A stretch of 51,844 bases of DNA from Prolixibacteraceae bacterium (lineage in GTDB: Bacteria > Bacteroidota > Bacteroidia > Bacteroidales > Prolixibacteraceae). A model generated the notes under the pieces. It was not told the DNA's origin, searched no databases, and saw nothing but the letters and a program-made list of their open reading frames with translations. The position numbers and the translations under genes are program-made. Below are positions 822-36,600 of this stretch, piece after piece. The stretch covers positions 1 to 51,844 of the forward strand of contig JAIBEY010000024.1 in the NCBI GenBank assembly GCA_019459525.1, written 5' to 3'. Within the stretch, counting starts at the first letter, position 1. Each line of letters starts with the position of its first letter.

Positions 822-829
822 TACCTTTG
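822..829 (+). promoter_or_regulatory. Putative -7 box for the B12 riboswitch transcript
   Basis: TACCTTTG matches TAnnTTTG exactly and would start transcription at about 836, just before the first conserved riboswitch segment. A convincing -33 element was not found. Confidence 0.6.
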
Positions 830-835
830 CAGCCG

Positions 836-1010
836 CATAGGTTCCTATTTTAGGATTAAAAGGGAAACAGGTGAACCGGCTAGCAACCGGCATTCCTGCA
901 CAGTTCCCGCTGCTGTAATTCCTTTACAACTTTGTAACAATGAACCACTGTGCTGATTTAATCGGCGCGGGAAGGCGTTACAGAGAGGATAAGTCAGAAG
1001 ACCTGCCTGT
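836..1010 (+). promoter_or_regulatory. Cobalamin (B12) riboswitch
   Basis: The conserved blocks appear in the right order: GGTTCC near 840, an AAAAGGGAAACAGGTG block near 858-873, the core CAGTTCCCGCTGCTGTAA at about 901-918, a GGGAAGG block near 969, and the B12 box AAGTCAGAAGACCTGCC at 991-1007. It lies about 110 bases upstream of a corrinoid uptake operon. By family knowledge, adenosylcobalamin or a related corrinoid binding would lower expression of the operon. The segment 1010-1120 would hold the expression platform. It contains short complementary runs (TTTCG/CGAAA near 1031-1048) but no textbook terminator. Confidence 0.93.
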
Positions 1011-1120
1011 TCAACCCCGGATTTTGAAGCTTTCGGCGAAAAAGCGAAAACCGTGTATCCTTTTCATCTTCATTTCTGAAAAGCTGCAAAATCCAACTCA
1101 TTTTTAAGATTTTACAGCAA

Positions 1121-3535
1121 ATGTTTCACATTAAAGGTACATTCAAATTACTCGTTACTACTCTTCTGCTGGCATTGTTTCACCCCGCGGAAGCTCAGTT
1201 TATTTCTAAAATTATTGATTATTCACCTGCCCCGGGGCAATTCACTAATGCTGATTTCATTGGTACGCCAGCCGCAGCACAGTCGCTTGTGGGAACAAAC
1301 AAAGGGATGGTTAGTTTGGGTGCTTTTGGCGGTTCTGTAACCGTTTATTTTTCATCGGGAATACAAAATGATCCGGCTAATCCGTATGGGGTCGATTTCA
1401 CTATTTACGGAAATTCGTCATCAGCATGGTCGGAGCCCGGAATTATCCAGGTTATGAAAGATGAAAACAAAAACGGCATTCCAGATGAAACCTGGTACGA
1501 AATTGCCGGAAGCGACCATTACTGGAATTCTACCAATTTTTCTTACGAAGTTACTTACCTAAACAATAACCTGAATCAAGCCAGCAATATCGAATGGGTT
1601 GATAATCTGGGTAAAACAGGCATTGTTCCCGAAAACAGTTTTCATCAGCAACCCTATTACCCCAAAGCTGATTTATTTCCTCAAATCCCGGCCGATAAAC
1701 AAACGTTGAAAGGAATCCGGATTGCAGGAGTGATTGATTTGTCGAATCCGGGTGTGGTCAACTCGTACCGGCGGGCTTTTGGATATGCCGATAATACACC
1801 CGTTTTATCGACTACCGAAAAACTACCTGACAATCCCTATACCTCCGCAATTGAAGGGAGTGGGGGCGATGCTATTGATATTGGATGGGCCGTAGATAAG
1901 AGCTTAAAACCTGTTCTTCTGGATGAAATTCATTTTATCCGGATTTATACCGGCATGAATGACATTGCCGGTTGGTTAGGCGAAGTATCCACGGAAATTA
2001 CCGGAATACGCGATGTTGAACCGGCGACCATCAGCGGCCCCATATCTTGCTTGGTTATGCAGGACTTACCCATGAAAATTATACTTGGCGGTTCTTTATC
2101 TTTAACAGCCAATGTTTTCGAAAACGGTATCCGGCAAGAGAGTACTGCCATTAACTGGACCGTCAGTAATACAGATTTAGCTGTCGTCGAAAACGGGCAG
2201 CTAAAATCAAAAAAATCGGGCAGCTTACTTTTGCGAGCTACATCAGCAGCCAATCCGGCCATTTATACCGAAAAAGAAATTGGAATAATTGAAGCAGGAA
2301 AGGCCGTAATTACCAACACCACAACTGGTTTGAAAGTGAACGACAAACTGGAGCTTTCCGGAAAACTGACTGACCAAAGTGGAAATATCCTGACTGGAAT
2401 TTCACCCAAATGGAGATCAGGCAATGAGTCTGTAGCCGAAATTATTTCGTACGACGGAAAGTATTACCTGAGAGGCAAACTGGCCGGTAAAACCTGGCTG
2501 TATCTTGAAGCTGCTGAAATCAAACTGCTTCCGGATTCGTTGCTCATGGAAGTCCTTCCTGAATCGGCGCTAAAAAAAGTGTTTTTCTCTGTCAAAACCA
2601 ATGAAAATACCATTATTCCGCGGCAATCGGTTTGGGTCGATCAGTTCGATCTGACTCCGAAAGTGGATCATGCTCAAAAAAAATACGGATTGCAGGAAAT
2701 TAATTTTGTGTCACTGGCTCACGCTATTGCATCGGCATTTAAAAATACAGACTTAACCAATGAGTGGGCGTTCCGGGATGATGCTGAGGGTGGATTGAAG
2801 TTGTATTTATGGAAAGTTCCAGAAAAGGACGAAGGCTCAATTGTTTATACGTTTGGGTACGGTGGTTCGCAAACCTCTCAATCAACCCGAAAAACCTGGG
2901 TAGTCATGCTCAACCAGCAGCAGATTGTTAACGGATTTGATCAAATCAAAGTAAACAACAACGACGAAATACTGATTTATCACCTTGCTGACAACAGCCT
3001 CCCCTGGACAGTTTCCCATCTGACTTCAGGAACTGATTCCGCAAAAAGAAATCAACCGATTGAAATACAGCTTAAACAGTATTCGTGTGCCATGGACGCC
3101 AGCAGGAATGTCGCTGTCAATTCTTCGGAAGCTGTTGCCAATCAGAAGGTTCAGTTTGAAGCAAAGGATCAGCCAATTGTCAGCCTTTCTACCGATGAAT
3201 TTGGGAAAGCCACTTTTACCACCACCAAATCAGGAGATTATTTGATTACTTCAGGAATTGACGCCGCACGACTATGGGTAGAACCGATAACCGGAGTCCA
3301 CACTTTCATAAAAAATCAGCTATCCTGCAAGGTTTACCCCAATCCGGTTACTGAATTTATTCGCATTGATTCTCCTTTTCCGATCCAATCTGTTGAGATT
3401 TTTAATACGAAAGGAGTGCTTGTTTGTGTTTCGGAGCAGGCAAACATTGATCTGTCTGCGATTCCTTCGGGAGTTTATGCCATTAGAGTCAATACGAACC
3501 ACCAGATTTTTCAGCAGAAAATCGTAAAAAAGTAG
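1121..3535 (+). CDS. B12-regulated T9SS-sorted cell-surface protein with Ig-like and transcobalamin-like (DUF4430-type) regions
   Basis: An 804-residue secreted protein, first gene after the B12 riboswitch. A signal peptide ends near residue 25 (PAEAQ). Residues 30-300 resemble the 'cell surface protein' family found in Bacteroidota B12 loci (motifs YGVDFTIYGN, ENKNGIPDETWYEIAGSDH). Residues about 310-390 look like a bacterial Ig-like domain. Residues about 486-650, with a TWVVMLNQQ...NGFDQIKVNNNDEI pattern, recall DUF4430/transcobalamin C-terminal domains. Residues from about 737 form a T9SS type A sorting domain (VYPNP to IVKK). It is likely a surface corrinoid-capture protein feeding the receptor encoded 4 bases downstream. 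Secretion and regulation are well supported; corrinoid binding is inferred. Confidence 0.8.
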   Translation: MFHIKGTFKLLVTTLLLALFHPAEAQFISKIIDYSPAPGQFTNADFIGTPAAAQSLVGTNKGMVSLGAFGGSVTVYFSSGIQNDPANPYGVDFTIYGNSSSAWSEPGIIQVMKDENKNGIPDETWYEIAGSDHYWNSTNFSYEVTYLNNNLNQASNIEWVDNLGKTGIVPENSFHQQPYYPKADLFPQIPADKQTLKGIRIAGVIDLSNPGVVNSYRRAFGYADNTPVLSTTEKLPDNPYTSAIEGSGGDAIDIGWAVDKSLKPVLLDEIHFIRIYTGMNDIAGWLGEVSTEITGIRDVEPATISGPISCLVMQDLPMKIILGGSLSLTANVFENGIRQESTAINWTVSNTDLAVVENGQLKSKKSGSLLLRATSAANPAIYTEKEIGIIEAGKAVITNTTTGLKVNDKLELSGKLTDQSGNILTGISPKWRSGNESVAEIISYDGKYYLRGKLAGKTWLYLEAAEIKLLPDSLLMEVLPESALKKVFFSVKTNENTIIPRQSVWVDQFDLTPKVDHAQKKYGLQEINFVSLAHAIASAFKNTDLTNEWAFRDDAEGGLKLYLWKVPEKDEGSIVYTFGYGGSQTSQSTRKTWVVMLNQQQIVNGFDQIKVNNNDEILIYHLADNSLPWTVSHLTSGTDSAKRNQPIEIQLKQYSCAMDASRNVAVNSSEAVANQKVQFEAKDQPIVSLSTDEFGKATFTTTKSGDYLITSGIDAARLWVEPITGVHTFIKNQLSCKVYPNPVTEFIRIDSPFPIQSVEIFNTKGVLVCVSEQANIDLSAIPSGVYAIRVNTNHQIFQQKIVKK

Positions 3536-3539
3536 TCAG

Positions 3540-5531
3540 GTGAAATCAAAAAGCAAAATCCTGACAACGACTCACTTCAAGGCAATTCTTTGTTGCCTGA
3601 TGGTTTTATTTTATGCCGAAGACATTGTTGCTCAAAAACTTAATGATACAATTTCTATTCAGGAAGTCCAGGTTTTTGGTAAAAAGAAAATTGAAGAATC
3701 GGGCTTACTGATTACGCATATTGATACCATGCAATTACAAATGATGAAAACGTTGACCGTTTCGGAATTGCTTTCATCCTACTCCCCAATTTTTATCAAA
3801 TCCTATGGGCGGGGCTCAACAGCTTCCGCTTCGTTTCGGGGAACAGCGCCTTCTCACACCCAGGTTTACTGGAATGGCATAAAGATCAACTCACCAATGC
3901 GCGGAGATGTTGATTTTTCGCTTTTCCCGGTTTATTTCATTGACGACATTAGCCTTCAGCATGGCGGAAGTTCTTTGCAATCGGGCTCCGGTGCTTTAGG
4001 CGGAAGCGTTCTTATCAACAATAAACCAGACTGGACAGATCGGTTGAGCATCAGGTATGTACAAACCATAGAAAGTTATGCTACAGCCAAAGAATACCTG
4101 AATGTTGGATTCGGAAATGGTAAATTCCAATTTAAAACCCGTGTATTTTCTGATCGAAGCAAAAACAATTTCCCGTATTTTAATTACGGAGTTTTACCGA
4201 TGCGCGAAACCACGCAGACAAATGCCGGTTACTCCAAAATGGGACTGTTGCAGGAAGTTTACACAAGATTGGCAAAGCACACGTTTTCGGCCAAACTGTG
4301 GGCACACCAAAGCAACCGCGACTTGCCGCAGTTAATGTCATTCGAAGGCGATACCCGTGTAGAAACTCAGGATGATCAAAACATCCGCGGAATAATTAAC
4401 TGGAAATACATTACCGAAAAAAGTAAGCTCGAATGGGTTGGGGGAGTGAATCTGAATGAACTGAACTACTTCAGATCAAGTACCGAAGCCAGTTTTGTGA
4501 ATTTTGACAGCCGGAGCAAAGAAAAAAGCTTCAGCAACCAAATCAATTTTGACTGGAAACCCAGGGAGACTTTAAGCCTTAACTGGTCGTTCAATACATC
4601 TTACCATCAGGTTTCTGTTTTTGATCGTGCCCAGCAATTGGGGTACGATCAGGATCGGATTGAATTATCGCTTCTTAATTCAATTCATTGGCAGCCCAAA
4701 CCTCAAGTATCGCTTTCATTTTTGTTTCGAAGTGAGTTGTATGACAGTCAATTAATAGAATTTATTCCATCAATTGGAATGGAATATTTTACAGATAAAA
4801 AGCAGCAAAGTTCGCTCAAACTCAATTTGGCGCGTAATTATCATCAACCGGGATTAAATGATTTATATTGGATTCCGGGAGGAAATCCGGACCTGAAGCC
4901 TGAAGATGGATATTCCGGAGATTTGGCTTTTGCATTTTCGAAAAAGAACAAAAAAATGACATTTTCTGGTCAATTAACCGGCTTTGCCTCGCTAATTGAG
5001 AACTGGATTGTATGGCAACCATCGGCAGGCGGGGCGTATTACTGGGAAGCCAATAATCTGCGCAAAGTATTTGCACGCGGCGTTGAAATTCAGACTTCAG
5101 TACATACAACGATTGCGAATGCAGTGTCTTTTGATTTGAGGGGCAATTATTCGCACGCGGCAACTTCAAACATTGACGCCGTTCCATCAGTCGATGAATC
5201 GAGAGGTAAACAATTGATATACATACCGAAACACAAAGCAAACCTGTTTGCCGAAGCCGCATTTAAAAACTATTATCTGAAAATAAATGCACCATTCACC
5301 GGGAAACGATATACTTCAAGCAATAATGTGGAATCGGACTATGAAAAAGTGCTGAACCCTTACTGGTTGTTTAATTTAACCGGTGGAAGAAGATTCGAGT
5401 TTAAGCCTTTTCGGGTTGATGCTTCCCTGAGTATTGAAAATTTAGCCAATACCGATTATATGGCTATTTTGTGGCGCCCTATGCCTGGCCGCTATTATTC
5501 TTTAACCTTTCAATTCAGTTACAAAAAGTGA
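3540..5531 (+). CDS. btuB: BtuB-type TonB-dependent outer membrane receptor (corrinoid)
   Basis: A 663-residue receptor starting with GTG at 3540, four bases after the preceding stop codon. A signal peptide ends near residue 31 (IVAQ). The plug domain spans about residues 35-160 (IQEVQVFGKK, SASFRGTAPSHTQVYWNG, LQSGSGALGGSVLI). The rest is a 22-strand-type barrel with the terminal strand YYSLTFQFSYKK. There is no N-terminal carboxypeptidase-like domain, unlike the SusC-type receptor at 17673. The B12 riboswitch upstream and the BtuG-like lipoprotein overlapping its stop codon make cobalamin or another corrinoid the likely cargo. Receptor identity is secure; the substrate is inferred from context. 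Confidence 0.88.
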   Translation: MKSKSKILTTTHFKAILCCLMVLFYAEDIVAQKLNDTISIQEVQVFGKKKIEESGLLITHIDTMQLQMMKTLTVSELLSSYSPIFIKSYGRGSTASASFRGTAPSHTQVYWNGIKINSPMRGDVDFSLFPVYFIDDISLQHGGSSLQSGSGALGGSVLINNKPDWTDRLSIRYVQTIESYATAKEYLNVGFGNGKFQFKTRVFSDRSKNNFPYFNYGVLPMRETTQTNAGYSKMGLLQEVYTRLAKHTFSAKLWAHQSNRDLPQLMSFEGDTRVETQDDQNIRGIINWKYITEKSKLEWVGGVNLNELNYFRSSTEASFVNFDSRSKEKSFSNQINFDWKPRETLSLNWSFNTSYHQVSVFDRAQQLGYDQDRIELSLLNSIHWQPKPQVSLSFLFRSELYDSQLIEFIPSIGMEYFTDKKQQSSLKLNLARNYHQPGLNDLYWIPGGNPDLKPEDGYSGDLAFAFSKKNKKMTFSGQLTGFASLIENWIVWQPSAGGAYYWEANNLRKVFARGVEIQTSVHTTIANAVSFDLRGNYSHAATSNIDAVPSVDESRGKQLIYIPKHKANLFAEAAFKNYYLKINAPFTGKRYTSSNNVESDYEKVLNPYWLFNLTGGRRFEFKPFRVDASLSIENLANTDYMAILWRPMPGRYYSLTFQFSYKK

Positions 5532-6607
5532 AAGTATTCCTTACTATACTCATCTGCCTGATCATATTTTCGGCATGCAAGGAAAATCCTGTTGATACCG
5601 TTTTCTTTGACTTTTCAGGAAACAGGGGTGTTTACATCGTAAACGAAGGAAATTTCATGTACGGCAATTCATCGTTATCCTTTTACGATACCGATTCGAA
5701 ACGGGTCTATAATCAGGTATTTCAGGCCAGAAATGGGGCACCGCTTGGCGATGTGGCTCAATCCATAGCCATCTGGAATAATCTGGGATTTGTAGTTGTA
5801 AACAATTCAGGCAAAATATATGTGATCGACAGCCGTACAGCCGAATTTAAAGGCACAATTTCGGGTTTAAGTTCTCCCCGTCACATCCATTTCGTCCATT
5901 CGCAAAAAGCGTATGTTACCGATCTTTACGCCAGAAAGATTACCATTTTCGATCCGCAAACGTTGCAGATTACAGGTAAAATACCTGTTGGCAATTCAAA
6001 ATCAGAATTTAATCAGCATTCCACCGAACAACTGATTTCGTATAAAAATCTGGTTTTCATCAACTGTTGGTCGTATGACAATAAGATTTTGGTAATTAAC
6101 TCTGATACAGATCAGCTGATTGATTCAATTGAAGTATTTAAACAACCAAACAGCATGGTTCTCGACAAGGAAAATAAGCTGTGGGTTTTAACTGACGGAG
6201 GTTTCGAGGGTAATCCTTACGGCTACGAACAGCCCGGATTGCTGAAAATTGATGCAGAAACCCGAGAGGTTGAGCGGTCGTTTCGTTTTGCAAGAGGAGA
6301 ACACCCGTTGAATCTTTGTATCAATCCGACCAGGGATACCTTGTATTTTTTGAACCGGCATGTCTGGAAAATGGCTACAGGCGAAAAACGAATTCCGGAG
6401 CAACCATTTATCGAATCCAAATACACCAGTTCGTACGGCGGGTTTTATAGCTTGGCTATCGATCCGGAAACCTCTGAAATCTATCTTGGCGATGCTATTG
6501 ACCATCGACAAAACGGACTGGTATATCGTTACAGCCGCAATGGAAAATTAATCGACGAATTTAAAGTCGGCATTTCTCCGGGCGATTTTGCCTTTAAAAA
6601 AGACTAA
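5528..6607 (+). CDS. btuG: BtuG-like surface lipoprotein, DUF5074/YncE-type beta-propeller
   Basis: A 359-residue lipoprotein. I chose the GTG at 5528, which overlaps the receptor's TGA (GTGA), because it yields a clean lipoprotein signal (MKVFLTILICLIIFSAC). An ATG at 5471 would place 19 extra residues before it. The mature part consists of repeated propeller blades (VYIVNEGNF, SPRHIHF, QPNSMVLD, EHPLNLCINP, GFYSLAIDP), typical of DUF5074 proteins. In Bacteroides, BtuG of this family sits on BtuB and binds B12 with extreme affinity at the cell surface. Co-transcription with a BtuB-type receptor under a B12 riboswitch supports the same role here. Confidence 0.82.
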   Translation: MKVFLTILICLIIFSACKENPVDTVFFDFSGNRGVYIVNEGNFMYGNSSLSFYDTDSKRVYNQVFQARNGAPLGDVAQSIAIWNNLGFVVVNNSGKIYVIDSRTAEFKGTISGLSSPRHIHFVHSQKAYVTDLYARKITIFDPQTLQITGKIPVGNSKSEFNQHSTEQLISYKNLVFINCWSYDNKILVINSDTDQLIDSIEVFKQPNSMVLDKENKLWVLTDGGFEGNPYGYEQPGLLKIDAETREVERSFRFARGEHPLNLCINPTRDTLYFLNRHVWKMATGEKRIPEQPFIESKYTSSYGGFYSLAIDPETSEIYLGDAIDHRQNGLVYRYSRNGKLIDEFKVGISPGDFAFKKD

Positions 6608-22957: not shown

Positions 22958-23827
22958 TCAATTTTTGCCAACAACTCTTTTTCGGTAATTCCGGGGAGAT
23001 AAACCTATTTTTTTCTGAAAGTCTTTCGAAAAATAATACGGGTCGGAATAACCCATCATAAACGATATTTCCTTGATCTTAAATTTACTGAAGTCGAGAT
23101 ACTCGCACGATTTGCTAATTTTGAGGTGCGAGAAATAGCTCAAAGGGCTATATCCGGTCTTCTTCCTGAAAATAGTGGTCAGGTATGAAGGTGAATAACC
23201 GGCTTCATCGGCAATTTCATTCAGGTTCAGTTTTTTATCCAGGTTTTGTTCCATAAATTGAATGGCGCGGGTAATTCCAGGATTTTGTTCTTCCATAAAA
23301 TCGTCACTCGTTTTACTGGCATAAATAAAAGTTGCCAATAAATGCCCGAAAGTCAGGTTGATGTATTTGTAGTTGGCATTATAAAAACCTTTGGTCAGGT
23401 TATTAAAAAGTTCGTCGAAAAGCATAATCCGGTTCGCTACCATATTGTTGGCAGAGGGAATAATATCCCGCACCACCGTAAAGTCCTTTTCCATGATTTT
23501 ACTTTTCTCTCCATTGAATTTACAGGTGTAAAAAACAGATGGGTCGGTTTCATTGGTTTGAACCTTAAATACAAATCCCTCAGGAATAATAAAATACTGG
23601 TTTTGCCTGAACGGAACCATATCGTTGGCAATCTGCAAAATACCTCCTCCTTTGGTACAAAAAATCAATAAATGGTCGTCCAACCTGATGTTTTCCGACC
23701 AAAGCGTTTCCTTTTTAATCAAAATTTCAGCTAACTCACACAAATACAAATCTTTGGTTAAGGGGTTGCTTTGCTGCTCTGCAACAATGTATGGAGGGAC
23801 TTTGAAAAATCGCTTTTTAATAATCAT
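22958..23827 (-). CDS. AraC-family transcriptional regulator
   Basis: A 289-residue regulator. Residues 1-165 form a cupin-like AraC ligand domain (ILQIANDMVPFRQNQYFIIPEGF). Residues about 188-289 carry the double helix-turn-helix (LNLNEIADEAGYSPSYLTTIFRKKTGYSP and, in the second half, EISFMMGYSDPYYFSKDFQKK). It is divergent from the corrinoid methyltransferase operon with only 122 bases between, so it is the obvious candidate regulator. The ligand could be the methyl donor. An intact sensor domain and divergent layout are seen; the regulatory link is inferred. Confidence 0.9.
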   Translation of the reverse strand: MIIKKRFFKVPPYIVAEQQSNPLTKDLYLCELAEILIKKETLWSENIRLDDHLLIFCTKGGGILQIANDMVPFRQNQYFIIPEGFVFKVQTNETDPSVFYTCKFNGEKSKIMEKDFTVVRDIIPSANNMVANRIMLFDELFNNLTKGFYNANYKYINLTFGHLLATFIYASKTSDDFMEEQNPGITRAIQFMEQNLDKKLNLNEIADEAGYSPSYLTTIFRKKTGYSPLSYFSHLKISKSCEYLDFSKFKIKEISFMMGYSDPYYFSKDFQKKIGLSPRNYRKRVVGKN

Positions 23828-23949
23828 AGCAAAAGGAATTGGTGCATCAAAAAAAGTAATATTTTACATCTTTATCAAAGAAAATACTATTTTTTACTGC
23901 CAGGTTAGCCTATACATTTACCTACTCAAATTCCTTAAACGATTAACCC

Positions 23950-24618
23950 ATGAACGAATTATTAACTAAACTTTCTGAATGTATTGAATTTGGAAAGATT
24001 AATATGGCTTCACCATACCCGCCTAATATGAAAGGACAGGAAGGTGCCGATGAAATTACCCGCAAAGCCTTGGAAGAAGGTGTAAATCCGCAAGATATTC
24101 TGTCCCTCGGATTAATGCCGGGAATGGAACGGATTGGTGTTAAATTCCGCGAAAATAAAGTTTTTGTTCCCCAGGTTTTAATGTCGGCTAAAGCCATGAG
24201 CACTGCCATGTTGCACCTGAAACCGCATTTTTTATCAGGAGCTGCCAAACAAAAAGGGACATTCATCATTGGTACCGTATTGGGCGACTTGCACGATATT
24301 GGCAAAAACCTGGTGGGAATGATGGTTGAAGGAAACGGCTACAAAGTAATCGACCTTGGAACCGATGTAAATTCCGAAAAGTTTATTGACGCCGCCAAAG
24401 AAAATCCCGATGCAGTTATTGGATTGTCGGCCTTGCTTACAACCACCATGGTGAATATGGAAAAAATTGCCAGGGACATCAAGGAGGCAGTTCCGGGAAC
24501 GTTGGTTACTATCGGGGGCGCTCCGGTAAATAATGATTTCTGTGCCAGAATTGGTGCCGACCATTATTCTCCCGACCCGCAAGGTGTGGTTGAATTCCTG
24601 AATACCAAATTTGCCTAA
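23950..24618 (+). CDS. Methyltransferase cognate corrinoid protein (MtaC/MtbC/MetH-cobalamin-domain type)
   Basis: A 222-residue corrinoid carrier. The N-terminal helical cap domain spans about residues 1-95 (PQDILSLGLMPGMERIGVKF, PQVLMSAKAM). The B12-binding Rossmann domain follows, with the base-off/His-on signature D113-x-H115-x-x-G118 (GDLHDIGKN), S160-x-L162 and G189-G190. It would shuttle a methyl group between two methyltransferases via Co(I)/methyl-Co(III). It is the first gene of the operon, followed by a UroD-type methyltransferase, a homocysteine methyltransferase-like protein and a MetH-type activation domain, which together make a complete corrinoid cycle. Confidence 0.95.
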   Translation: MNELLTKLSECIEFGKINMASPYPPNMKGQEGADEITRKALEEGVNPQDILSLGLMPGMERIGVKFRENKVFVPQVLMSAKAMSTAMLHLKPHFLSGAAKQKGTFIIGTVLGDLHDIGKNLVGMMVEGNGYKVIDLGTDVNSEKFIDAAKENPDAVIGLSALLTTTMVNMEKIARDIKEAVPGTLVTIGGAPVNNDFCARIGADHYSPDPQGVVEFLNTKFA

Positions 24619-24652
24619 GCCATTTTCTGGCCTGAATTTATACGATAACATT

Positions 24653-26272
24653 ATGAACGGACTTTCATTAATTAAACAGGCCATCCGGCTCGAACCCGTT
24701 GAGCGCGTTCCATGGGTGCCATTTGTGGGTGTTCATGGCGGATATTTAATTGGGGTTGATGCCGAGCAGTACCTGAAATCGGCACCCAACATGATTGCAG
24801 GACTGACCAAGGCCATTGAGTTGTATAAACCTGACGGCATTCCGGTTAGTTTCGATTTACAGCTCGAAGCCGAAATATTGGGCTGTAAACTCAATTGGGC
24901 CAAAGAAAATCCACCTGCTGTTGTTACACATCCGTTGTTGGAAGGAGTTTTGCTCAGTTCGTTAAAAGTGCCAACAGCCAACGATGGCCGAATTCCAATT
25001 GTTTTAGAAACCACACGGACTCTGCGTACTCAGAATCCCGAAATTGCCTTATACGGACTGATAACCGGTCCGTTTACGCTGGCATTGCACTTGTTGGGTA
25101 CCGAAATTTTCATGAAACTGTTCGAAGACCCGGAATATGTAATGGAAGTCATGGACTTCTGCACCAAAGTTGCCATCAGCTATTCGGAAATGCTGCTGGA
25201 TGCCGGATGCGATGTAATTGCCGTGGTTGACCCAATGACCAGCCAGATTGACCCGGCTTCGTTCGAAACGTATGTAACTCCTTACGTTTCACAAATTTTC
25301 GATTTCATCAGGCAAAAAGAAAAACTGAGTTCATTCTTTGTTTGCGGGCACGCACAGCAAAACATCGAAGCCATGTGCGATTGCCATCCGGATAACATCT
25401 CGATTGACGAAAATATACCGCTCGATTTTGTAAAAGAAATAGCCCTTTCGAAGAAAATAAGCTTCGGCGGAAACCTGAAACTAACCGTAGTTTTACTCAT
25501 GGGCGATCCTGATGATTGCAAACATGACGCGCTTTCGTGCCTCGATTTGGGCGGAAATAGGGGCTTTATTTTAGCTCCCGGCTGCGATTTACCCATGCAA
25601 ACACCGGTTGAAAATATTCAGGCCGTTTCGGAGTTGGTTTTTAGTCGGTATCTTCAGGATATTGCCCGAAACCTGGATAAAAAGGAGAGTAAGCTGGATA
25701 TCCTGAACATGAAAGATTATGGCCAATCAGACAAAGTTATCGTTGATATTATTACGCTCGATTCCGAATCCTGCGCCCCTTGCCAGTACATGGTTGAAGC
25801 GGTAAAACGGGTAGCTCCGCATTTTGAAGGTGTGGTGGAATGGCGCGAACACCCGATCAAAAAGATGGAAGCAGTTTCCTTCATGTCATCGCTGATGGTG
25901 AAGAATATCCCGACCATTTGCATTGATGGAAAAATCGTATTTGTTTCTCAGATTCCGCCGCAAAACCTGCTGATAGAAGCTATCCAGAAACGGATCAACG
26001 AAAAACTGAAACTGAAAATCAAGTCGAAACGCAGTGAAGTGCTGATTTTTGGAGAAACCGAGCAGGAATGTAAAGAAGTAACCAAACGTGTAAAACGGGC
26101 TGTTGCCGAATTGGGCAAATCAACCTCTATATCTGTAATTACCGATAAAGCGCAGATGGCTTCTTTCGGCATTAAAAAAGGACCGGCGGTTGTTCTGGTC
26201 AATTATAAGCTGAAGTCAGAAGTACATGTTCCGTCACTCGATGTGATCAAGGAATGGATAAAAGAAATCTAA
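24653..26272 (+). CDS. UroD/MtaA-family methyltransferase fused to two thioredoxin-like domains
   Basis: A 539-residue protein; I chose the ATG at 24653 (MNGLSLIKQAIRLEPVERVP) over an upstream in-frame start lacking family similarity. Residues 1-345 form the uroporphyrinogen decarboxylase-type barrel used by MtaA, MtbA and CmuA. The Zn-ligand region is altered: MtaA has HxC, here it reads FVCGH, keeping Cys231 with a His at 233. The C-terminal Cys311 sits in ILAPGCDLPMQTPVENI. Residues about 360-445 form a thioredoxin-like fold with CAPC at 374-377, and about 455-539 a second thioredoxin-like domain without CxxC. The fusion suggests redox or thiol handling alongside methyl transfer. Confidence 0.88.
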   Translation: MNGLSLIKQAIRLEPVERVPWVPFVGVHGGYLIGVDAEQYLKSAPNMIAGLTKAIELYKPDGIPVSFDLQLEAEILGCKLNWAKENPPAVVTHPLLEGVLLSSLKVPTANDGRIPIVLETTRTLRTQNPEIALYGLITGPFTLALHLLGTEIFMKLFEDPEYVMEVMDFCTKVAISYSEMLLDAGCDVIAVVDPMTSQIDPASFETYVTPYVSQIFDFIRQKEKLSSFFVCGHAQQNIEAMCDCHPDNISIDENIPLDFVKEIALSKKISFGGNLKLTVVLLMGDPDDCKHDALSCLDLGGNRGFILAPGCDLPMQTPVENIQAVSELVFSRYLQDIARNLDKKESKLDILNMKDYGQSDKVIVDIITLDSESCAPCQYMVEAVKRVAPHFEGVVEWREHPIKKMEAVSFMSSLMVKNIPTICIDGKIVFVSQIPPQNLLIEAIQKRINEKLKLKIKSKRSEVLIFGETEQECKEVTKRVKRAVAELGKSTSISVITDKAQMASFGIKKGPAVVLVNYKLKSEVHVPSLDVIKEWIKEI

Positions 26273-26296
26273 AAGTTCGAAGTGAACTAAAGTGTG

Positions 26297-26343
26297 GAGT
26301 GCCTAAAGTTTGTATTATATAAAACGATTAACTTTAGGCACTC
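26297..26343 (+). other. Perfect 14-bp inverted repeat within the methyltransferase operon
   Basis: GAGTGCCTAAAGTT (26297-26310) pairs perfectly with AACTTTAGGCACTC (26330-26343) across a 19-base AT-rich loop. The stem may extend outward through AAAGT/ACTTT with a three-base bulge. It begins 25 bases past the stop of the UroD-fusion gene and ends 17 bases before the next start codon. There is no long T-run, so a role in mRNA processing, stability or partial termination is more likely than full termination. Confidence 0.75.
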
Positions 26344-26360
26344 ACTTTAACACATTTATC

Positions 26361-27248
26361 ATGCGCAAAATCATTCACGAAATACAAAAGGGCAGGGTAT
26401 TGGTTTCTGACGGAGCCTGGGGAACTTTTCTTCAGAAAAAAGGATTGCTACCCGGCGAATGCCCAGAACAATGGAATGTGACCCGTTCCGAAGATATTTT
26501 CGATATTGCCAAAAGCTACATCCGTGCCGGTGCCGATATGATTGAAACCAACAGCTTTGGTGGTAACTATTTTAAGTTGAAAGGATACGGACTGGAAAAT
26601 CAGGTTTACGAGTTGAATAAGGCTGCCGCTGCAATTAGCCGGAGGGCCGCTGGTTCTGACCATTTTGTATTGGGATCTGTTGGCCCGACCGGAAAACTGT
26701 TGATGATGGAAGAAGTCACAGAAGCAGAGCTTTACGAGGCGTTTAAAGCACAATCGTTTGCTTTGGAAGCAGGTGGCGCCGATGCCATTGTGATTGAAAC
26801 CATGACCGATCTGGAAGAAGCACGGATAGCAGTAAAAGCCGCCAAAGAAAATACAGCCTGCGAGGTAATTTGTACCATGACGTTTGATAAAATCCTGAGC
26901 GGCGAATACCGTACCATGATGGGAATTTCGCCTGCTGAAATGACAGAAACGCTTGTGGAAGCCGGGGCGACCATTATTGGGGCCAACTGCGGAAACGGCA
27001 TTGCCGACATGATTGGTATCGTAAAGGAAATCAGGCAGGTAAATGCACAGATCCCGATTCTGATCCATGCCAATGCCGGAATGCCACAGTATTGCGATGG
27101 CGAAACCACTTTCCCGGAATCGCCTGCTGATATGGCCAGTCGGGTAAAAGAAATCATCGAAGCTGGGGCAAATATTATTGGCGGCTGTTGCGGTACAACT
27201 CCCGATCATATTTGCGAGGTTCATCATGTAGTAAAAAGCGTCAAATAA
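26361..27248 (+). CDS. Homocysteine S-methyltransferase family protein (BHMT/MetH N-domain type)
   Basis: A 295-residue Zn-dependent barrel. The ATG at 26361 gives MRKIIHEIQKGRVLVSDGAWGT, the family's N-terminus; a start at 26310 would lie inside the upstream hairpin. Zn-binding Cys210 (GANCGNG) and Cys276-Cys277 (GGCCGTTPDHI) are all present, as are ETNSFGGN and GSVGPTG. In MetH this domain passes the methyl group from methylcobalamin to homocysteine. Here it is a free-standing subunit beside a corrinoid protein. It could make methionine or, run in reverse, take methyl from a thioether donor. Confidence 0.92.
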   Translation: MRKIIHEIQKGRVLVSDGAWGTFLQKKGLLPGECPEQWNVTRSEDIFDIAKSYIRAGADMIETNSFGGNYFKLKGYGLENQVYELNKAAAAISRRAAGSDHFVLGSVGPTGKLLMMEEVTEAELYEAFKAQSFALEAGGADAIVIETMTDLEEARIAVKAAKENTACEVICTMTFDKILSGEYRTMMGISPAEMTETLVEAGATIIGANCGNGIADMIGIVKEIRQVNAQIPILIHANAGMPQYCDGETTFPESPADMASRVKEIIEAGANIIGGCCGTTPDHICEVHHVVKSVK

Positions 27249-28154
27249 ATGCCTGCCATTCCGATGCAACTGGTAACCGGTTTTTTAGGAAGTGGGAAAA
27301 CTACTTTCCTGAAAAATTACCTGGACGAATTTTCCGGTTCCCGAAAGATTGGAATTATTCAAAATGAATTCTCGGAAGTGAATATCGATACCCTTGAAAT
27401 TCAGCAAAATAAACCGGGGTTTGAAATTCTGGAAGTTAATAACGGCTCGGTTTTTTGCGTTTGCCTGTTGGGTAGTTTTGTCGATTCATTGGCTGCTTTT
27501 ATTGATCAGATTCAGCCCAACGAACTGATTTTGGAAGCTTCAGGAATGTCTGATCCGCTGAGTATTGGCCAGATTTTGCAATCACCCGCATTAAAACACA
27601 AAATTTACTTAGATCATGTCTGGTGCCTGGTTGATGCCCTCAATTTCCGAAAAATATCTGGACTGCAAACCCGGGTCAATCATCAGATTCGCATTGCTGA
27701 CACCATAGTTATAAACAAATCAGATCTTGCTGAAATTAAGGATGATGAACTATTTCAGTTAATCCGGAAATTGAATCCATTTGCTGATATTCAAACAACC
27801 TCATTTTCGAGGATTTCGTTTGAATCAAAGAAGGTAAATATGAAATTTATTCCACCCGGAGAAAACGCCGAAAATGGCAGACCGGACCTGGAATCACAGG
27901 TTATAAAAAGCACGCGACTGATTTCGCCGGAGAAGTTGAATGAATTTTTAGCATTCATACGGGAAGTTTGCATCCGGGGCAAAGGATACATCAATCTAAC
28001 CTCCGGAACAAGAATTCTCTTGCAAATCAGCTTTAATCAGATCACCATTCAGGAAGTTGAAAAAATAGCGGCTCCCTCTGAATTTGTTGTGCTGGGAAAT
28101 TTCCCGGACAAACCATCATTCCAAAAACTTTTTGATTATTATTGCCAATCATGA
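27249..28154 (+). CDS. COG0523 (CobW/P47K) G3E-family GTPase
   Basis: A 301-residue putative metallochaperone GTPase whose ATG follows the previous stop codon directly. The P-loop is GFLGSGKTT (11-19); an NKSD guanine-specificity motif lies at VINKSDLAEI. The usual metal-binding CxCC motif is reduced to Cys70-V-Cys72-L (VFCVCLLG). The C-terminal CobW domain is present but short. COG0523 members deliver or guard Zn, Co or other metals. Its place between two Zn-type methyltransferases and a corrinoid reactivation domain suggests metal loading for these enzymes; this is inference. Confidence 0.9.
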   Translation: MPAIPMQLVTGFLGSGKTTFLKNYLDEFSGSRKIGIIQNEFSEVNIDTLEIQQNKPGFEILEVNNGSVFCVCLLGSFVDSLAAFIDQIQPNELILEASGMSDPLSIGQILQSPALKHKIYLDHVWCLVDALNFRKISGLQTRVNHQIRIADTIVINKSDLAEIKDDELFQLIRKLNPFADIQTTSFSRISFESKKVNMKFIPPGENAENGRPDLESQVIKSTRLISPEKLNEFLAFIREVCIRGKGYINLTSGTRILLQISFNQITIQEVEKIAAPSEFVVLGNFPDKPSFQKLFDYYCQS

Positions 28155-28849
28155 TACGTCCAATCACTTATTCGTTTAGTGAACTCACTATTGATAAAGT
28201 TCACCTCTCGGCAATGCTTGGTTTTCCGGAGGGAAATCTCCCGGAGCCATTCGATTTGTATGTTGCTGAAGCATTTCAGGAAGCCGAAATGATCTGTGAC
28301 ATTCAGGGGGCATATTGTTTCACAAAAACGATTGAGTTTGGTGCTGGAAACGGCCAGTTGATTGTTGACGGACTCGAATTCGAAATTGGCAAAACAATAG
28401 CAAAAGAGCTTCGGCATTCAGAAAACCTGGCTTTGTTTATTTGTACTGCAGGTAGCAGAATCAGTCAACTGTCGCAGGAATTACTCACTGGAGAAAACCC
28501 TGTTTTAGGCTATATTTATGATGTTTTAGGTTCCATGATTGCCGAAGCAGCAACGGATAAACTGCAACTGGAAATCCAGAAAATTGCCAACGAACAGGGG
28601 TCAGCTATCACCAACCGGTATAGTCCGGGTTATTGCAAATGGAGCGTAGCCGACCAACACAAGCTGTTTTCCTTTTTTCCGGAAAATTGCTGCAAAATAA
28701 GCCTGTCCGAATCGGCATTAATGTATCCGATTAAATCCGTCAGCGGAATTATTGGGGTAGGAGCCAATGTTAAATTTAGGGAATATACCTGCGATTTATG
28801 CAACCAAAACGAGTGTTTTCAACGGTCGCACCGCAGAATTAAAGCATAA
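28151..28849 (+). CDS. Free-standing MetH-type reductive activation domain protein
   Basis: A 232-residue protein. The ATG at 28151 overlaps the GTPase stop (ATGA); a TTG at 28142 adds only three residues. It matches the vitamin B12-dependent methionine synthase activation domain: RYSPGYCKW (156-164) and MYPIKSVSGIIGVG (191-204) in the SAM-binding region. In MetH this domain uses SAM and a reductant to rescue oxidised Co(II) cobalamin. Unlike MetH, it ends in a cysteine cluster (Cys214, Cys217, Cys222) that could hold an Fe-S centre or Zn. Stand-alone versions are known beside truncated MetH in Thermotoga. Confidence 0.9.
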   Translation: MIRPITYSFSELTIDKVHLSAMLGFPEGNLPEPFDLYVAEAFQEAEMICDIQGAYCFTKTIEFGAGNGQLIVDGLEFEIGKTIAKELRHSENLALFICTAGSRISQLSQELLTGENPVLGYIYDVLGSMIAEAATDKLQLEIQKIANEQGSAITNRYSPGYCKWSVADQHKLFSFFPENCCKISLSESALMYPIKSVSGIIGVGANVKFREYTCDLCNQNECFQRSHRRIKA

Positions 28850-28854
28850 AAAGT

Positions 28855-29811
28855 ATGAAAATAGTTGTATTGGATGGATATGCCCTGAATCCGGGAGACT
28901 TATCGTGGGAAAATCTGCAAAAATTAGGTGATTGCCAGATTTTTGACCGTACCAAGCCTGATGATATTTTAGTGCGGATTGGTAATGCCGACGTAATTAT
29001 CACCAATAAGGTATTGGTTGACAGACATTTAATTGAACAACTTCCGTTACTGAAATACATCGGTGTGACAGCCACCGGGTATAATGTAGTTGATGTTTTA
29101 GCTGCCTCTGAAAAAAATATCGTTGTAACCAATATTCCGGCTTACAGTACCGATTCTGTTGCCCAATTGGTATTTTCGCATATACTGAATGTAACTAACC
29201 GGATCGATCTTCATTCCGGATCTGTTAAGGCAGGTTATTGGGCCAAAAATCAGGATTTTGCGTATTGGAAAACACCACAGGTTGAATTGACCGGAAAAAC
29301 ACTCGGCATTGTAGGCTTTGGCCGGATTGGAAGAAAAGTTGCAGAAATAGCGCAGGCATTTGGCATGAACGTTATATTTCAGAACCGCTCAATAAAAACG
29401 GATATTCCTCCCGGAATGATTCAGAAAAGTCTTGAAGTCGTTTTTACCGAAAGCGATTTTATAAGTCTGAATTGCCCGTTAACTGCCGAAAACAGCATGT
29501 TTGTAAATAAAAATATGATCCGGATTATGAAGCCAACAGCAGTGCTGATTAATACCGGAAGGGGAGGGCTGATCAACGAAGCTGATCTGGCTGAAGCACT
29601 GAATTCGGGGCAAATAGGAGCTGCCTGCCTTGATGTATTGTCAACAGAGCCACCAGCGCCCCAGAACCCGCTCATTGCAGCAAAAAACTGTTTTATCACC
29701 CCCCATATGGCCTGGGCAACAATTGAGGCCCGTCAACGTTTAATGAATATTACTGTTGATAATTTAACTGGTTACCTTTCTGGAAACCCCAAAAATGTAG
29801 TTCTACCTTAA
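28855..29811 (+). CDS. D-2-hydroxyacid dehydrogenase (NAD-dependent)
   Basis: A 318-residue cytoplasmic dehydrogenase beginning 5 bases after the activation-domain gene. The Rossmann motif is GIVGFGRIGRKVAEIA. Catalytic residues are in the usual places: Arg in INTGRGGLIN, Glu in LDVLSTEPP and His in ITPHMAWAT. The sequence ATGYNVVDVLAASEKNIVVTN is typical of the glycerate/hydroxypyruvate reductase branch. It reduces a 2-keto acid to the D-hydroxy acid or the reverse. Its place as the last gene of the methyltransferase operon may mean that it handles the demethylated product. Confidence 0.9.
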   Translation: MKIVVLDGYALNPGDLSWENLQKLGDCQIFDRTKPDDILVRIGNADVIITNKVLVDRHLIEQLPLLKYIGVTATGYNVVDVLAASEKNIVVTNIPAYSTDSVAQLVFSHILNVTNRIDLHSGSVKAGYWAKNQDFAYWKTPQVELTGKTLGIVGFGRIGRKVAEIAQAFGMNVIFQNRSIKTDIPPGMIQKSLEVVFTESDFISLNCPLTAENSMFVNKNMIRIMKPTAVLINTGRGGLINEADLAEALNSGQIGAACLDVLSTEPPAPQNPLIAAKNCFITPHMAWATIEARQRLMNITVDNLTGYLSGNPKNVVLP

Positions 29812-32929: not shown

Positions 32930-33856
32930 TCAAATATCAAAGCACAAATTATCCAGATTAAACGGAGTTTCCTGATAAACGTAATAATTCAGCCAATTGG
33001 AAATCAGCAAATTGGCATGACCACGCCATCGCATCAATGGTTCTTTTTCCGGGTCATTATCCGGGTAATAATTGGCCGGAATTTCGATCGGAAGTTTTTT
33101 CTTTACATCCCGCTTGTATTCGGTGTCCAGTGTATATCTGGAATATTCGGAATGACCGGTAACAAAAAATTGCCGGCCATCAGGAGTCATTACCATATTC
33201 ACGCCAGACTCAGCCGATTTTGAAACAATATTCAATTCCGAAATTTTACGGATATCTTCCTCCAAAACCTCAGTATGACGGGAGTGCGGTACAAAATATT
33301 CATCGTCGAAACCTCTGAAAATAGGTAAAGTGTCATTCAGGTTTTGGTGTTTGAAAACGCCAAACATTTTTTTACTGAGCAGGTATTTCGGAACGCCATA
33401 AAAATGATACAACCCGGCCTGCGCAGCCCAACAGATAAAAAGCGAAGAGGTTACATGCTGTTTCGACCAGTCGAAAATTTCCGTAAGCTCTTTCCAGTAG
33501 GTAACTTCCTCAAAAGGAAGCATTTCTACAGGTGCTCCGGTAAAAATCATTCCATCGTAGTTTCTCGATTTCAGTTGATCGAATGTCTTGTAGAATGCCG
33601 TCATATGTTCGTCAGAAGTATTTTTCGACTCGTGACCTTTCATTCTCAAAAAATCAATCTCTACCTGAAGTGGCGAATTCGAAAGCAATCGGATTAAATC
33701 AGTTTCCGTAGTAATTTTTATAGGCATCAAATTGACAATGATGATCTTTAGCGGACGAATATCCTGGTGCGAAGCACGTGATTCGTCCATAATAAATATA
33801 TTTTCTTTTTGCAGCAATTCGATAGCTGGCAACTGATCCGGAACATTAATTGGCAT
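32930..33856 (-). CDS. metA: Homoserine O-acetyltransferase (MetA type)
   Basis: A 308-residue class I glutamine-amidotransferase-like enzyme. The catalytic Cys is at 142 (ICWAAQAGL). Position 111 is Glu (GAPVEML), which in characterised MetA enzymes selects acetyl-CoA, whereas Gly selects succinyl-CoA. It therefore very likely makes O-acetylhomoserine, the substrate of MetY encoded just upstream in the same operon. Further family landmarks are [32 protein letters not shown] and [15 protein letters not shown]. It is the last gene of the AK-metY-metA unit, 69 bases after metY. Confidence 0.96.
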
Positions 33857-33925
33857 GATTTCAATTTTTAATTAAAATCCGGAATTCCAGTGTAACCTGA
33901 AATTCCGGAATATCGATTTGTAAAA

Positions 33926-35236
<1,311 letters not shown>

Positions 35237-35256
35237 TTATTTTTAGGGATTAAAAT

Positions 35257-36600
35257 CTAATTGAAAAATATTCGATGTATTTCGGTTATGGCTTTTCGGG
35301 TGTCATTCTGATCAACAATAAGGTAACTAACCAAATCTGAAGCGCCCGAACCGCTCAGTAAAACGTTAATTTTGTGCTGGGCAACTGCTGTAAACAATTT
35401 CGCTGAAACACCGTGATGTTGCTGCATTCCATGACCAACAACTGCAATGAGTGAAACCCGGTCTTCAATGATTATTTCGCTAACCGAACTCAGAGGTAAT
35501 TGTTTGCAGATTTGTCTCGCCTGTTCAATTTCATTTTTATTCAGGATGATATTAATGCTTACCTGTGAGGTAATTACAGAACGAATGTTAATACCGGAAC
35601 GATGAAATGCAGTAGTTACTTTCGCCAGAATACCGGGTTTAAATCCAACTCCGGGACCGTTAAGCTTTAAGATGGCAATATCATTGGTATGAACCACACT
35701 TTTAACCACATTGGGCGAAACGAACGATTCGGAATTAATTATAGTCGTGAGCTCTTTCCCTTTGTTTTTCAGGCGGAAAACATGAATGGGAATGTGATTA
35801 CTGATTAAGGGCTCAACGATGCGCGGATGGATAGAAAGCTCGCTAAAATAAGACAACTCGGATGCTTCGGCATAAGTTAGCCGTGGAATAAGCTTTGATT
35901 CATTAATAAACTCGGAATCGGATGTGCGGAATTCTTTGTCTAGCTCCCACAGTTGAAGTGTTTCTACTCCGGTAAGGCGCGTGATTGCTGCTGCCGAATA
36001 ATCAGCGGAACGTGTCCCAAGCCGTGCAATTTTTCCTCCTGAAGTTATGCCGTACGAGCCGGGTATCAGATTAATTCCTTCCGGAAGAAGATTTTTCAAC
36101 GGTTTCGATTCATCGGGCAAGAAAGTTGCATTTCCAAATTCTTCTGTCACACAAAAATTAATGTTTTCAGGGAAAACCAGTTTCGATTTAACCAGATTTC
36201 CGGACAGAAATACATACAGGATACTTGCAGTAATCCGCTCCGAGAAACTGATTACCTGATCTTTAAGAGCCAACGAAAAATCGCCGGTAAACTCAATACC
36301 CTTTAGCAAATTTTGTAGGTTATCCCGCTCGCTCTTCAGTATTTCGTTCCATTCAGACTGTTGAAATACGAGCAGTTTCTGTGTTATGATTTCATTTACT
36401 TTGCTGATAATCAGATCAGAAGTAGCAGTGTTACTAATCAGCAGATCAATACCTTGTTCTATGGTTTGTTGCAATTCTGGAATGGCAGAAACGACTACGG
36501 TTGTGTTATTTCCTGATTCGGACAAAAGGCTAGCAAAAGCTTCGAGTACAGGAGATTTAGACAAACTGTTTCCGCCAAATCGTACGACACAATTTGACAT
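35257..36600 (-). CDS. Aspartate kinase homologue with divergent active-site motifs
   Basis: A 447-residue aspartokinase-family protein without a homoserine dehydrogenase domain. Kinase fold about 1-275; two C-terminal ACT domains about 300-447 (IAILKLNGPGVGFKPGILAKVTTAFHRSGINI...). Several signatures are changed: the usual KFGGTS is RFGGNS with Arg7 in place of the catalytic Lys, GRGGSDYTA is GTRSADYSA, and WTDVDG is WELDKE. VVSA and YAEASELSYF persist. It may be a low-activity, re-specialised or regulatory aspartate kinase. It is first in the methionine operon behind a Met-rich leader. Confidence 0.82.
   Translation of the reverse strand: MSNCVVRFGGNSLSKSPVLEAFASLLSESGNNTTVVVSAIPELQQTIEQGIDLLISNTATSDLIISKVNEIITQKLLVFQQSEWNEILKSERDNLQNLLKGIEFTGDFSLALKDQVISFSERITASILYVFLSGNLVKSKLVFPENINFCVTEEFGNATFLPDESKPLKNLLPEGINLIPGSYGITSGGKIARLGTRSADYSAAAITRLTGVETLQLWELDKEFRTSDSEFINESKLIPRLTYAEASELSYFSELSIHPRIVEPLISNHIPIHVFRLKNKGKELTTIINSESFVSPNVVKSVVHTNDIAILKLNGPGVGFKPGILAKVTTAFHRSGINIRSVITSQVSINIILNKNEIEQARQICKQLPLSSVSEIIIEDRVSLIAVVGHGMQQHHGVSAKLFTAVAQHKINVLLSGSGASDLVSYLIVDQNDTRKAITEIHRIFFN

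Follow-up and report, generated by a model that had tools for sequence, protein, structure and literature searches.

The question raised by this locus is whether the functions of MetH, when encoded by separate genes and without a folate module, form a methyl-transfer system of their own. The genes are in a 51,844-base contig (C100; "the window", meaning the whole stretch of DNA analysed) of a 5.54-Mb Prolixibacteraceae genome with a completeness of 99.99. An initial annotation described six same-strand genes encoding a corrinoid carrier, a UroD/MtaA-type methyltransferase, a homocysteine methyltransferase, a COG0523 GTPase, a MetH activation domain and a D-hydroxyacid dehydrogenase. A list of open reading frames (ORFs) and a Pfam scan agree: six ORFs, all on the + strand, span positions 23950–29811 (Table 1). 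The conserved operon is five of these genes. They encode a stand-alone corrinoid protein, a UroD-type enzyme fused to thioredoxin domains (UroD-Trx), a stand-alone homocysteine S-methyltransferase (HMT), a COG0523/CobW-type GTPase and a stand-alone MetH-type activation protein. On balance, we think it somewhat probable that the operon is an inducible, folate-independent corrinoid methyl-transfer system ending on homocysteine, with a donor demethylated by UroD-type enzymes and methionine made. For the acceptor half of this reading, conserved residues and gene linkage are the evidence; the donor half we infer.

Table 1. Coordinates of the operon, its regulator and associated features in the window.
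Feature	Position	Strand	Remarks
AraC-family regulator	22958..23827	-	HTH_AraC Pfam match; divergent from operon
Conserved 43-bp site, probable AraC operator	23853..23895	+	ends 54 bp ahead of first start codon
Stand-alone corrinoid (B12) carrier protein	23950..24618	+	PF02310 (B12-binding) and PF02607 (its cap)
UroD-Trx, MtaA-like UroD methyltransferase fused to thioredoxin domains	24653..26272	+	PF01208 (URO-D), PF13192 (Thioredoxin_3)
CAPC motif, first thioredoxin domain of UroD-Trx	25772..25783	+	both Cys in 83/83 sequences
Stand-alone homocysteine S-methyltransferase barrel (HMT)	26361..27248	+	PF02574 (S-methyl_trans); alignment to 1q7m
COG0523/CobW-type GTPase	27249..28154	+	PF02492 (cobW) plus CobW_C
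Stand-alone MetH-type activation protein	28151..28849	+	PF02965 (Met_synt_B12), 35.0 bits vs cut-off 25; 1j6r match
D-2-hydroxyacid dehydrogenase	28855..29811	+	PF02826 (2-Hacid_dh)

The starts given for UroD-Trx (24653), HMT (26361) and the activation protein (28151) are the likely ATG codons. Note that the UroD-Trx ORF opens further upstream, at TTG 24611.

A UroD-Trx alignment, scanned against genome contigs, identified 399 relatives. The best 80 loci were analysed, and 78 have a recognised anchor. Records with UroD-Trx are labelled Bacteroidota (Prolixibacteraceae, Draconibacterium, Mariniphaga, Cyclobacteriaceae and others), Planctomycetes, KSB1, Calditrichota, Chitinivibrionales, SAR324, BRC1/Sumerlaeota and Raymondbacteria, about eight phylum-level groups altogether. 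The closest relative among the matches listed is in a Prolixibacteraceae metagenome-assembled genome (L154), where the UroD protein is 94–95% identical. The initial annotation had proposed a check for the same gene order in other genomes, and these genes do cluster there. Within 6 kb of UroD-Trx, CobW occurs at 62 of the 80 loci, the corrinoid protein at 52, HMT at 44 and the activation protein at 21; these are raw counts, without a random control, and several of the 80 loci are close kin. Where a locus extends for 4 kb or more on either side of UroD-Trx (42 loci), the equivalent numbers are 37, 32, 24 and 12.

Genes not seen at the locus can be encoded elsewhere. We searched 25 of the 28 genomes whose UroD-Trx locus showed no corrinoid gene, and 23 have a stand-alone corrinoid protein at another position (42–72% identity). 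Similarly, 33 of the 36 genomes without HMT at the locus were searched. A stand-alone HMT-type protein was present in 28 (hand count), 12 of these being at least 54% identical. The activation protein was detected, again by hand count, in 33 of 50 genomes surveyed from the 80. In an order-level sample of 149 genomes, with sets compiled by hand, the corrinoid protein is in 8/8 genomes with UroD-Trx and 12/141 without, counts that are uncorrected for kinship. Here, the UroD-Trx set is 8 of 21 genomes with matches, the others having different UroD genes. The corrinoid protein set is 20 of 30 genomes, with a best match of at least 59%; the 10 dropped had matches of 36–48% or fused frames.

Residues of the homocysteine, B12 and activation modules, as in MetH, are retained in the stand-alone proteins. 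Among 58 relatives of HMT, the three zinc-type Cys residues occur in 57, 56 and 56, and the remaining sequences have gaps there. The His of GDLHDIG, a cobalt-ligand type residue, is present in all 74 relatives of the corrinoid protein. The activation protein has SPG in 47/47 relatives, the Tyr after it in 44/47 and the Arg in 43/47. We take these residues of the three proteins to be catalytic. HMT is thus the probable acceptor enzyme, and the activation protein is the probable S-adenosylmethionine (SAM)-dependent reactivator of the corrinoid protein. The COG0523 GTPase, a probable metal chaperone, has its P-loop Lys and two Cys residues in 70/70 relatives. The two Cys residues lie in a CVC sequence (window 27456–27464); the usual motif of COG0523 proteins is CxCC.

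Maximum-likelihood trees were built with 28 rows for stand-alone HMT, 36 for the stand-alone corrinoid protein and 30 for the stand-alone activation protein; in each tree, these rows fall on one side of a branch separating them from MetH. Branch support is 100/99, 100/98 and 100/100 respectively, for trees of sampled rows that contain 18, 18 and 17 MetH rows, from the window's own genome and UroD-Trx genomes only, with an unknown root and long branches flagged. With the stand-alone parts forming their own clades, the trees do not support a recent fission of MetH; an ancient split may have occurred. Full-length MetH (an open frame of 1228 amino acids) is encoded in the same genome as the operon. 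A second check proposed by the initial annotation, for full MetH in related genomes, gave a MetH-type match in 46 of the 50 UroD-Trx genomes (hand count; some frames are cut by contig ends). Hence, the operon probably does not encode the main methionine synthase and, with MetH present, it does not encode the sole one. We conclude that the operon is an additional, modular and separately inherited system. The picture of MetH taken apart is accurate for the separate genes and the absent folate module, but is not supported for the origin of the parts, which are clades of their own alongside an intact MetH.

Could a pterin-binding protein encoded elsewhere feed the operon with methyl-tetrahydrofolate, making it a split MetH as in Phaeobacter and Ruegeria? 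We consider this very improbable. Split systems with an unlinked pterin module do exist, according to the available text of PMC5764234 and PMC12478193, and the pterin domain of MetH itself could be the methyl source. However, Pfam gave no pterin-binding match among the six ORFs, and a PF00809 search found no tetrahydrofolate methylase within 20 kb of the operon. The initial annotation would have been undermined by a pterin-binding partner for these proteins. In the whole genome, PF00809 matches only full-length MetH and a 292-amino-acid protein, on contigs C45 and C74 and not the window contig C100; by its PDB relatives, the smaller protein is a dihydropteroate synthase. Also against a split MetH, the genome already has MetH and the operon is linked to UroD genes and an AraC site. 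The only stand-alone PF02607 proteins of the genome are the operon corrinoid protein and a MerR-type regulator. The latter (L173 1165–2097, G000:C4) is a B12-cap protein with a MerR-like N-terminus, and we read it as CarH-like.

The MtgBCDE, or split methionine synthase, systems of Ruegeria and Phaeobacter are the nearest comparison for the acceptor half. In the available text of PMC12478193 and PMC5764234, these share with the operon a stand-alone corrinoid protein and homocysteine methyltransferase, and a carrier common to demethylation and methionine synthesis. Their own features are the pterin module MtgD, the MtgB donor enzyme and RamA/DUF1638 activators. In the operon, the pterin module is absent, UroD enzymes are the proposed donor enzymes and the activator is of MetH type; a search confined to the six ORFs, and not the rest of the genome, found no MtgB (pfam06253). 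Compared with MetH, the homocysteine, B12 and activation functions are shared, but the genes are separate, belong to separate clades, lack a folate module and coexist with MetH. The folate-independent core methionine synthases (Mes) use a MetE-type catalytic domain, as far as the available text of PMC7857596 goes, whereas the acceptor candidate of the operon is PF02574. COG0523 genes adjoining corrinoid methyltransferase genes are already known, as COG0523 subfamily 13 (Haas 2009; available text of PMC2770081). The likeness is of co-localisation only, and the partner here is UroD-Trx.

UroD-Trx is the unusual component. Residues 20–343 are an MtaA-like barrel. A first thioredoxin-like domain (residues ~383–460) carries the CAPC motif and has a HUIPC-type NCBIfam match below the cut-off. 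A second (residues 477–551) matches Thioredoxin_3 and, below the cut-off, TIGR00412. The AlphaFold model (pLDDT 87.5, pTM 0.75) best matches PDB entries 4ay8 (Methanosarcina mazei MtaA; TM score 0.89 by target length) and 4ay7. Hence the earlier assignment as a UroD/MtaA-type methyltransferase holds, by PF01208 and fold, but overlooked the C-terminal thioredoxin fusion. The barrel fold and both Cys ligands are shared with MtaA/MtbA methylcobamide:coenzyme M methyltransferases. Even so, UroD-Trx scores below the curated families (172.9 against 235.4 for TIGR01463; 187.2 against 244 for PRK06252), has fused thioredoxin domains and lacks the His of the zinc site. At the position of the LHICGN His of 4ay7, which we take to be a zinc ligand, all 83 aligned UroD-Trx sequences have Phe. 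Both zinc-type Cys positions, and both Cys residues of CAPC, are present in 83/83. Conversely, among the other UroD-family ORFs in the examined loci (n=82), the position is His in 79, Gly in 1, unalignable in 2 and Phe in none. The second thioredoxin domain is absent from five order-level relatives, and its single Cys occurs in 53/83 sequences. Therefore, only the first thioredoxin domain looks essential. CAPC might hold the Cys ligands reduced, handle a sulfur or selenium substrate, or act directly in catalysis.

These features bear on a rather unlikely alternative, that the operon is related to type 1 mlp gene clusters, as described by Kountz and Balskus (PMC10418091). In that case, methyl would come from a compound in which it is bound to sulfur or selenium (methanethiol, dimethyl sulfide or selenide, methylthioadenosine), and both the methyl group and the sulfur or selenium would be salvaged by the operon. 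UroD-Trx is nearest MtaA in fold and sequence, the group that holds the Mlps, and a thioredoxin domain is suited to sulfur or selenium chemistry. Both Cys ligands are kept and, as in the clusters described in the available text of that paper, an MtaA-like UroD enzyme accompanies one corrinoid protein with folate methylase absent. The same text gives S-methyltransferases a His-Cys-Cys zinc site, and type 1 clusters at least two Mlps, nearly always with this site, plus a Ram/RACE activase. The operon has one UroD enzyme, thioredoxin-fused and Phe-Cys-Cys in 83/83, with a MetH-type activation protein, HMT and CobW. No RACo domain (Ram/RACE activase) was found in a search confined to the six ORFs, not the rest of the genome. 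Furthermore, sulfur-specific genes are absent among neighbour clusters found in at least 6 of the 80 loci. In its logic, the operon thus resembles both type 1 mlp clusters and MtgBCDE, yet it lacks defining features of each.

UroD-Trx might alternatively work on the acceptor side, moving methyl from the corrinoid protein to sulfur held or reduced by the CAPC domain, with the donor role left to other UroD enzymes. MtaA-type enzymes do methylate a thiol, CAPC is invariant and some loci but not others have a second UroD, with His-x-Cys, next to UroD-Trx; the retention of His in 79/82 other UroD-family ORFs, with Phe in none, fits too. Still, the operon already has an acceptor enzyme, HMT, a thiol product is not known and the direction in which UroD-Trx works is deduced only. 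We regard this arrangement as doubtful.

For the favoured methyl-transfer system with UroD enzymes at the donor end, the arrangement of genes in other genomes is informative. The activation protein is present in 21 of 296 genomes of a phylum-level sample. Among these 21, only the window's own genome has UroD-Trx; 19 have UroD relatives of at most 29% identity and one has no match. In 20 stretches from genomes without UroD-Trx, the activation protein occurs together with the corrinoid protein and HMT in 12. Since these three cluster without UroD-Trx, the core is independent of it. Another UroD-family ORF is in 13 of the 20 stretches, although one is a fragment and the strand is not always the same. 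This fits UroD enzymes behaving as interchangeable, plug-in donor modules.

One such candidate is a family of 417-amino-acid UroD proteins, found near UroD-Trx operons and in separate loci. These align with His-x-Cys, with His at the third position. Across the 149 order-level genomes, the operon-type corrinoid protein is in 10/11 genomes with the 417-amino-acid UroD and 10/138 without (Fisher p 1.7e-9, a test that ignores kinship). The 11 genomes are from 16 with matches, five weak or partial ones being dropped; if all 16 are kept, the corrinoid protein is in 12 of them. GH29 fucosidases are 5 of 71 neighbours of the 417-amino-acid UroD, from 3 of 12 loci (L213 yielded no such UroD, hence no neighbours were counted). 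In controls, GH29 accounts for at most 1/60 proteins, from a table covering 25 of 97 families, and 0/7 stretches. A fucosidase as direct partner of UroD-Trx was rejected, with GH29 in none of its 80 loci.

The window's own genome has six other UroD matches, and the four examined are next to GH38, GH78, NPCBM, GH29 or NamZ genes. Three of these UroD genes, L078 (G000:C90), L080 (G000:C103) and L081 (G000:C18), adjoin genes for glycan or cell-wall degradation, and their products are probably not heme enzymes. Hand-picked neighbour proteins include GH120, GH43/32-like, melibiase, GH31, GH10, sulfatase and RhaT proteins, as well as GHMP and ROK kinases, a sugar transporter and Gfo/Idh/MocA proteins. 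Around 60 neighbour proteins, hand-picked and including some UroD genes, were scanned out of 167 non-core directon ORFs and others. Our best guess is that the donor is an O-methylated compound from glycan breakdown. O-methyl sugars are the leading candidates, because some other UroD genes sit in glycan loci and the 417-amino-acid UroD co-occurs with the corrinoid protein.

Regulation points the same operon towards induction. An AraC ortholog (>45% identity) is in 22 of the 80 loci and is antiparallel to UroD-Trx in all 22. All 22 also have a 43-bp AT-rich site upstream of the operon, with 0–6 mismatches. Where the corrinoid gene was detected, the site begins 64–215 bp upstream of it, usually at ~96. 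Sites without AraC in the available sequence are those of L091 (at a contig end), L101 and L112 (weak, with 12 mismatches). Every other match among the examined loci is in a copy of the window sequence itself (L044, L066, L172). There were no matches in 2.5 Mb of mononucleotide-shuffled sequence, a control that is blind to shared descent; flanks of the site differ between compared loci. A TAnnTTTG element, presumably the Bacteroidota promoter motif, is downstream of the site in 8 of 9 sequences inspected, the window's copy being one letter off. We conclude that AraC is probably dedicated to the operon, with the divergent gene part of the unit. The pairing points to the 43-bp site being an activator site and to ligand induction of the operon. 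A GntP permease gene (L112 5644–6999) is on the strand opposite to the operon and belongs to a cluster found at 10 of the 80 loci; the permease may carry inducer or donor.

The favoured system would operate as follows. AraC, presumably answering the donor or a relative of it, would turn the operon on via the 43-bp site. UroD-type enzymes would demethylate the methyl donor: UroD-Trx here, with other UroD enzymes maybe acting on the same carrier. The methyl group would move to the Co(I) corrinoid protein, be carried as methyl-Co(III) and be passed by the stand-alone HMT to zinc-bound homocysteine, giving methionine. The MetH-type activation protein would repair accidental Co(II) using SAM and an electron donor. 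Metal would be delivered by the COG0523 GTPase. Of the initial annotation, which proposed methyl transfer through B12 to homocysteine or another thiol, the analysis supports the modular corrinoid system, its lack of a folate module and its homocysteine-type acceptor.

Several observations weigh against this reading. The donor, the acceptor and every reaction, along with the direction of UroD-Trx and the regulation, are deduced from genes alone. Without its zinc His, UroD-Trx should not be assumed to use the standard UroD mechanism; CdmB is a UroD methyltransferase that works without zinc (available text of PMC13222342). In many non-Bacteroidota loci, UroD-Trx adjoins CobW alone. In the searches described above, a stand-alone corrinoid protein is missing in 2/25 genomes (G501, and G496, where it is in a 919-amino-acid frame) and a clear stand-alone HMT in 5/33. 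The activation protein was not found, at the sensitivity used, in 17/50, including Mariniphaga anaerophila. Glycan genes give a modest signal among hand-picked neighbours, many of which are of other kinds (peptidases, an ABC permease, PhyH, a PFL-like enzyme with its radical-SAM partner, ThiF and others). GH29 is in 0/80 UroD-Trx loci, the operon itself holds neither the 417-amino-acid UroD nor a glycan gene, and G366, from the same family, has UroD-Trx without the 417-amino-acid UroD.

A 226-amino-acid gene behind CobW in Draconibacterium-type loci was considered as a substitute activator, and dropped: it has no Pfam match, and succinate dehydrogenase subunit-like genes come after it. In a related operon, a RACo/ASKHA corrinoid activase gene (L074 11894–13390) is immediately behind the activation protein, so that two kinds of activator are adjacent.

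Plant and algal polysaccharides often carry O-methyl groups, and no anaerobic enzyme is known to us that takes these off sugars. The literature searched, as far as its available text goes, describes no corrinoid O-demethylation of sugars, no UroD–thioredoxin corrinoid methyltransferase and no such gene combination. A bolder proposal, which we consider unlikely, is that UroD-Trx represents a class of corrinoid methyltransferase not seen before, with the thioredoxin Cys catalytic and replacing zinc-His logic. It would be the resident partner of a corrinoid hub that harvests sugar O-methyl groups (from O-methyl-fucose, rhamnose or glucuronate, for example) into methionine without folate, in Bacteroidota, Planctomycetota and other glycan degraders. 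If so, one corrinoid protein would gather methyl groups from UroD enzymes across glycan loci, and UroD-like genes bearing the name of a heme-synthesis enzyme would gain a function. The UroD–thioredoxin family is broadly conserved, its active site was not found in the text available to us, and its chemistry is testable.

The sixth ORF, for a D-hydroxyacid dehydrogenase, was counted as an operon gene by the initial annotation. While the ORF is present, it is matched in just 4 of 80 related loci (L089, L094, L096, L154); hence it is peripheral, restricted to close relatives and no part of the core. For the same reason, it was dropped as a pointer to the donor. Between UroD-Trx and HMT is a strong hairpin (window 26290–26357; -28.8 kcal/mol, z -5.45), which could be either a repeat element or an expression control. 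This gap varies widely between relatives, and GTGCCTAAAGTT from it recurs right behind UroD-Trx in L089, L092 and L095.

Elsewhere in the window, genes for homoserine O-succinyltransferase, a Cys/Met pyridoxal phosphate enzyme and an aspartate-kinase-type protein are on the opposite strand at 32930–36600, 3.1 kb from the operon. These homocysteine-supply neighbours were dropped as part of the system, being near the operon only in L096 and L154 of the 80 loci (many loci end earlier). Finally, the region at 822–6607 has a cobalamin riboswitch (91.7 bits) before genes for a sorting-tail protein, a TonB plug protein and a DUF5074 protein, and is a probable B12 uptake operon.

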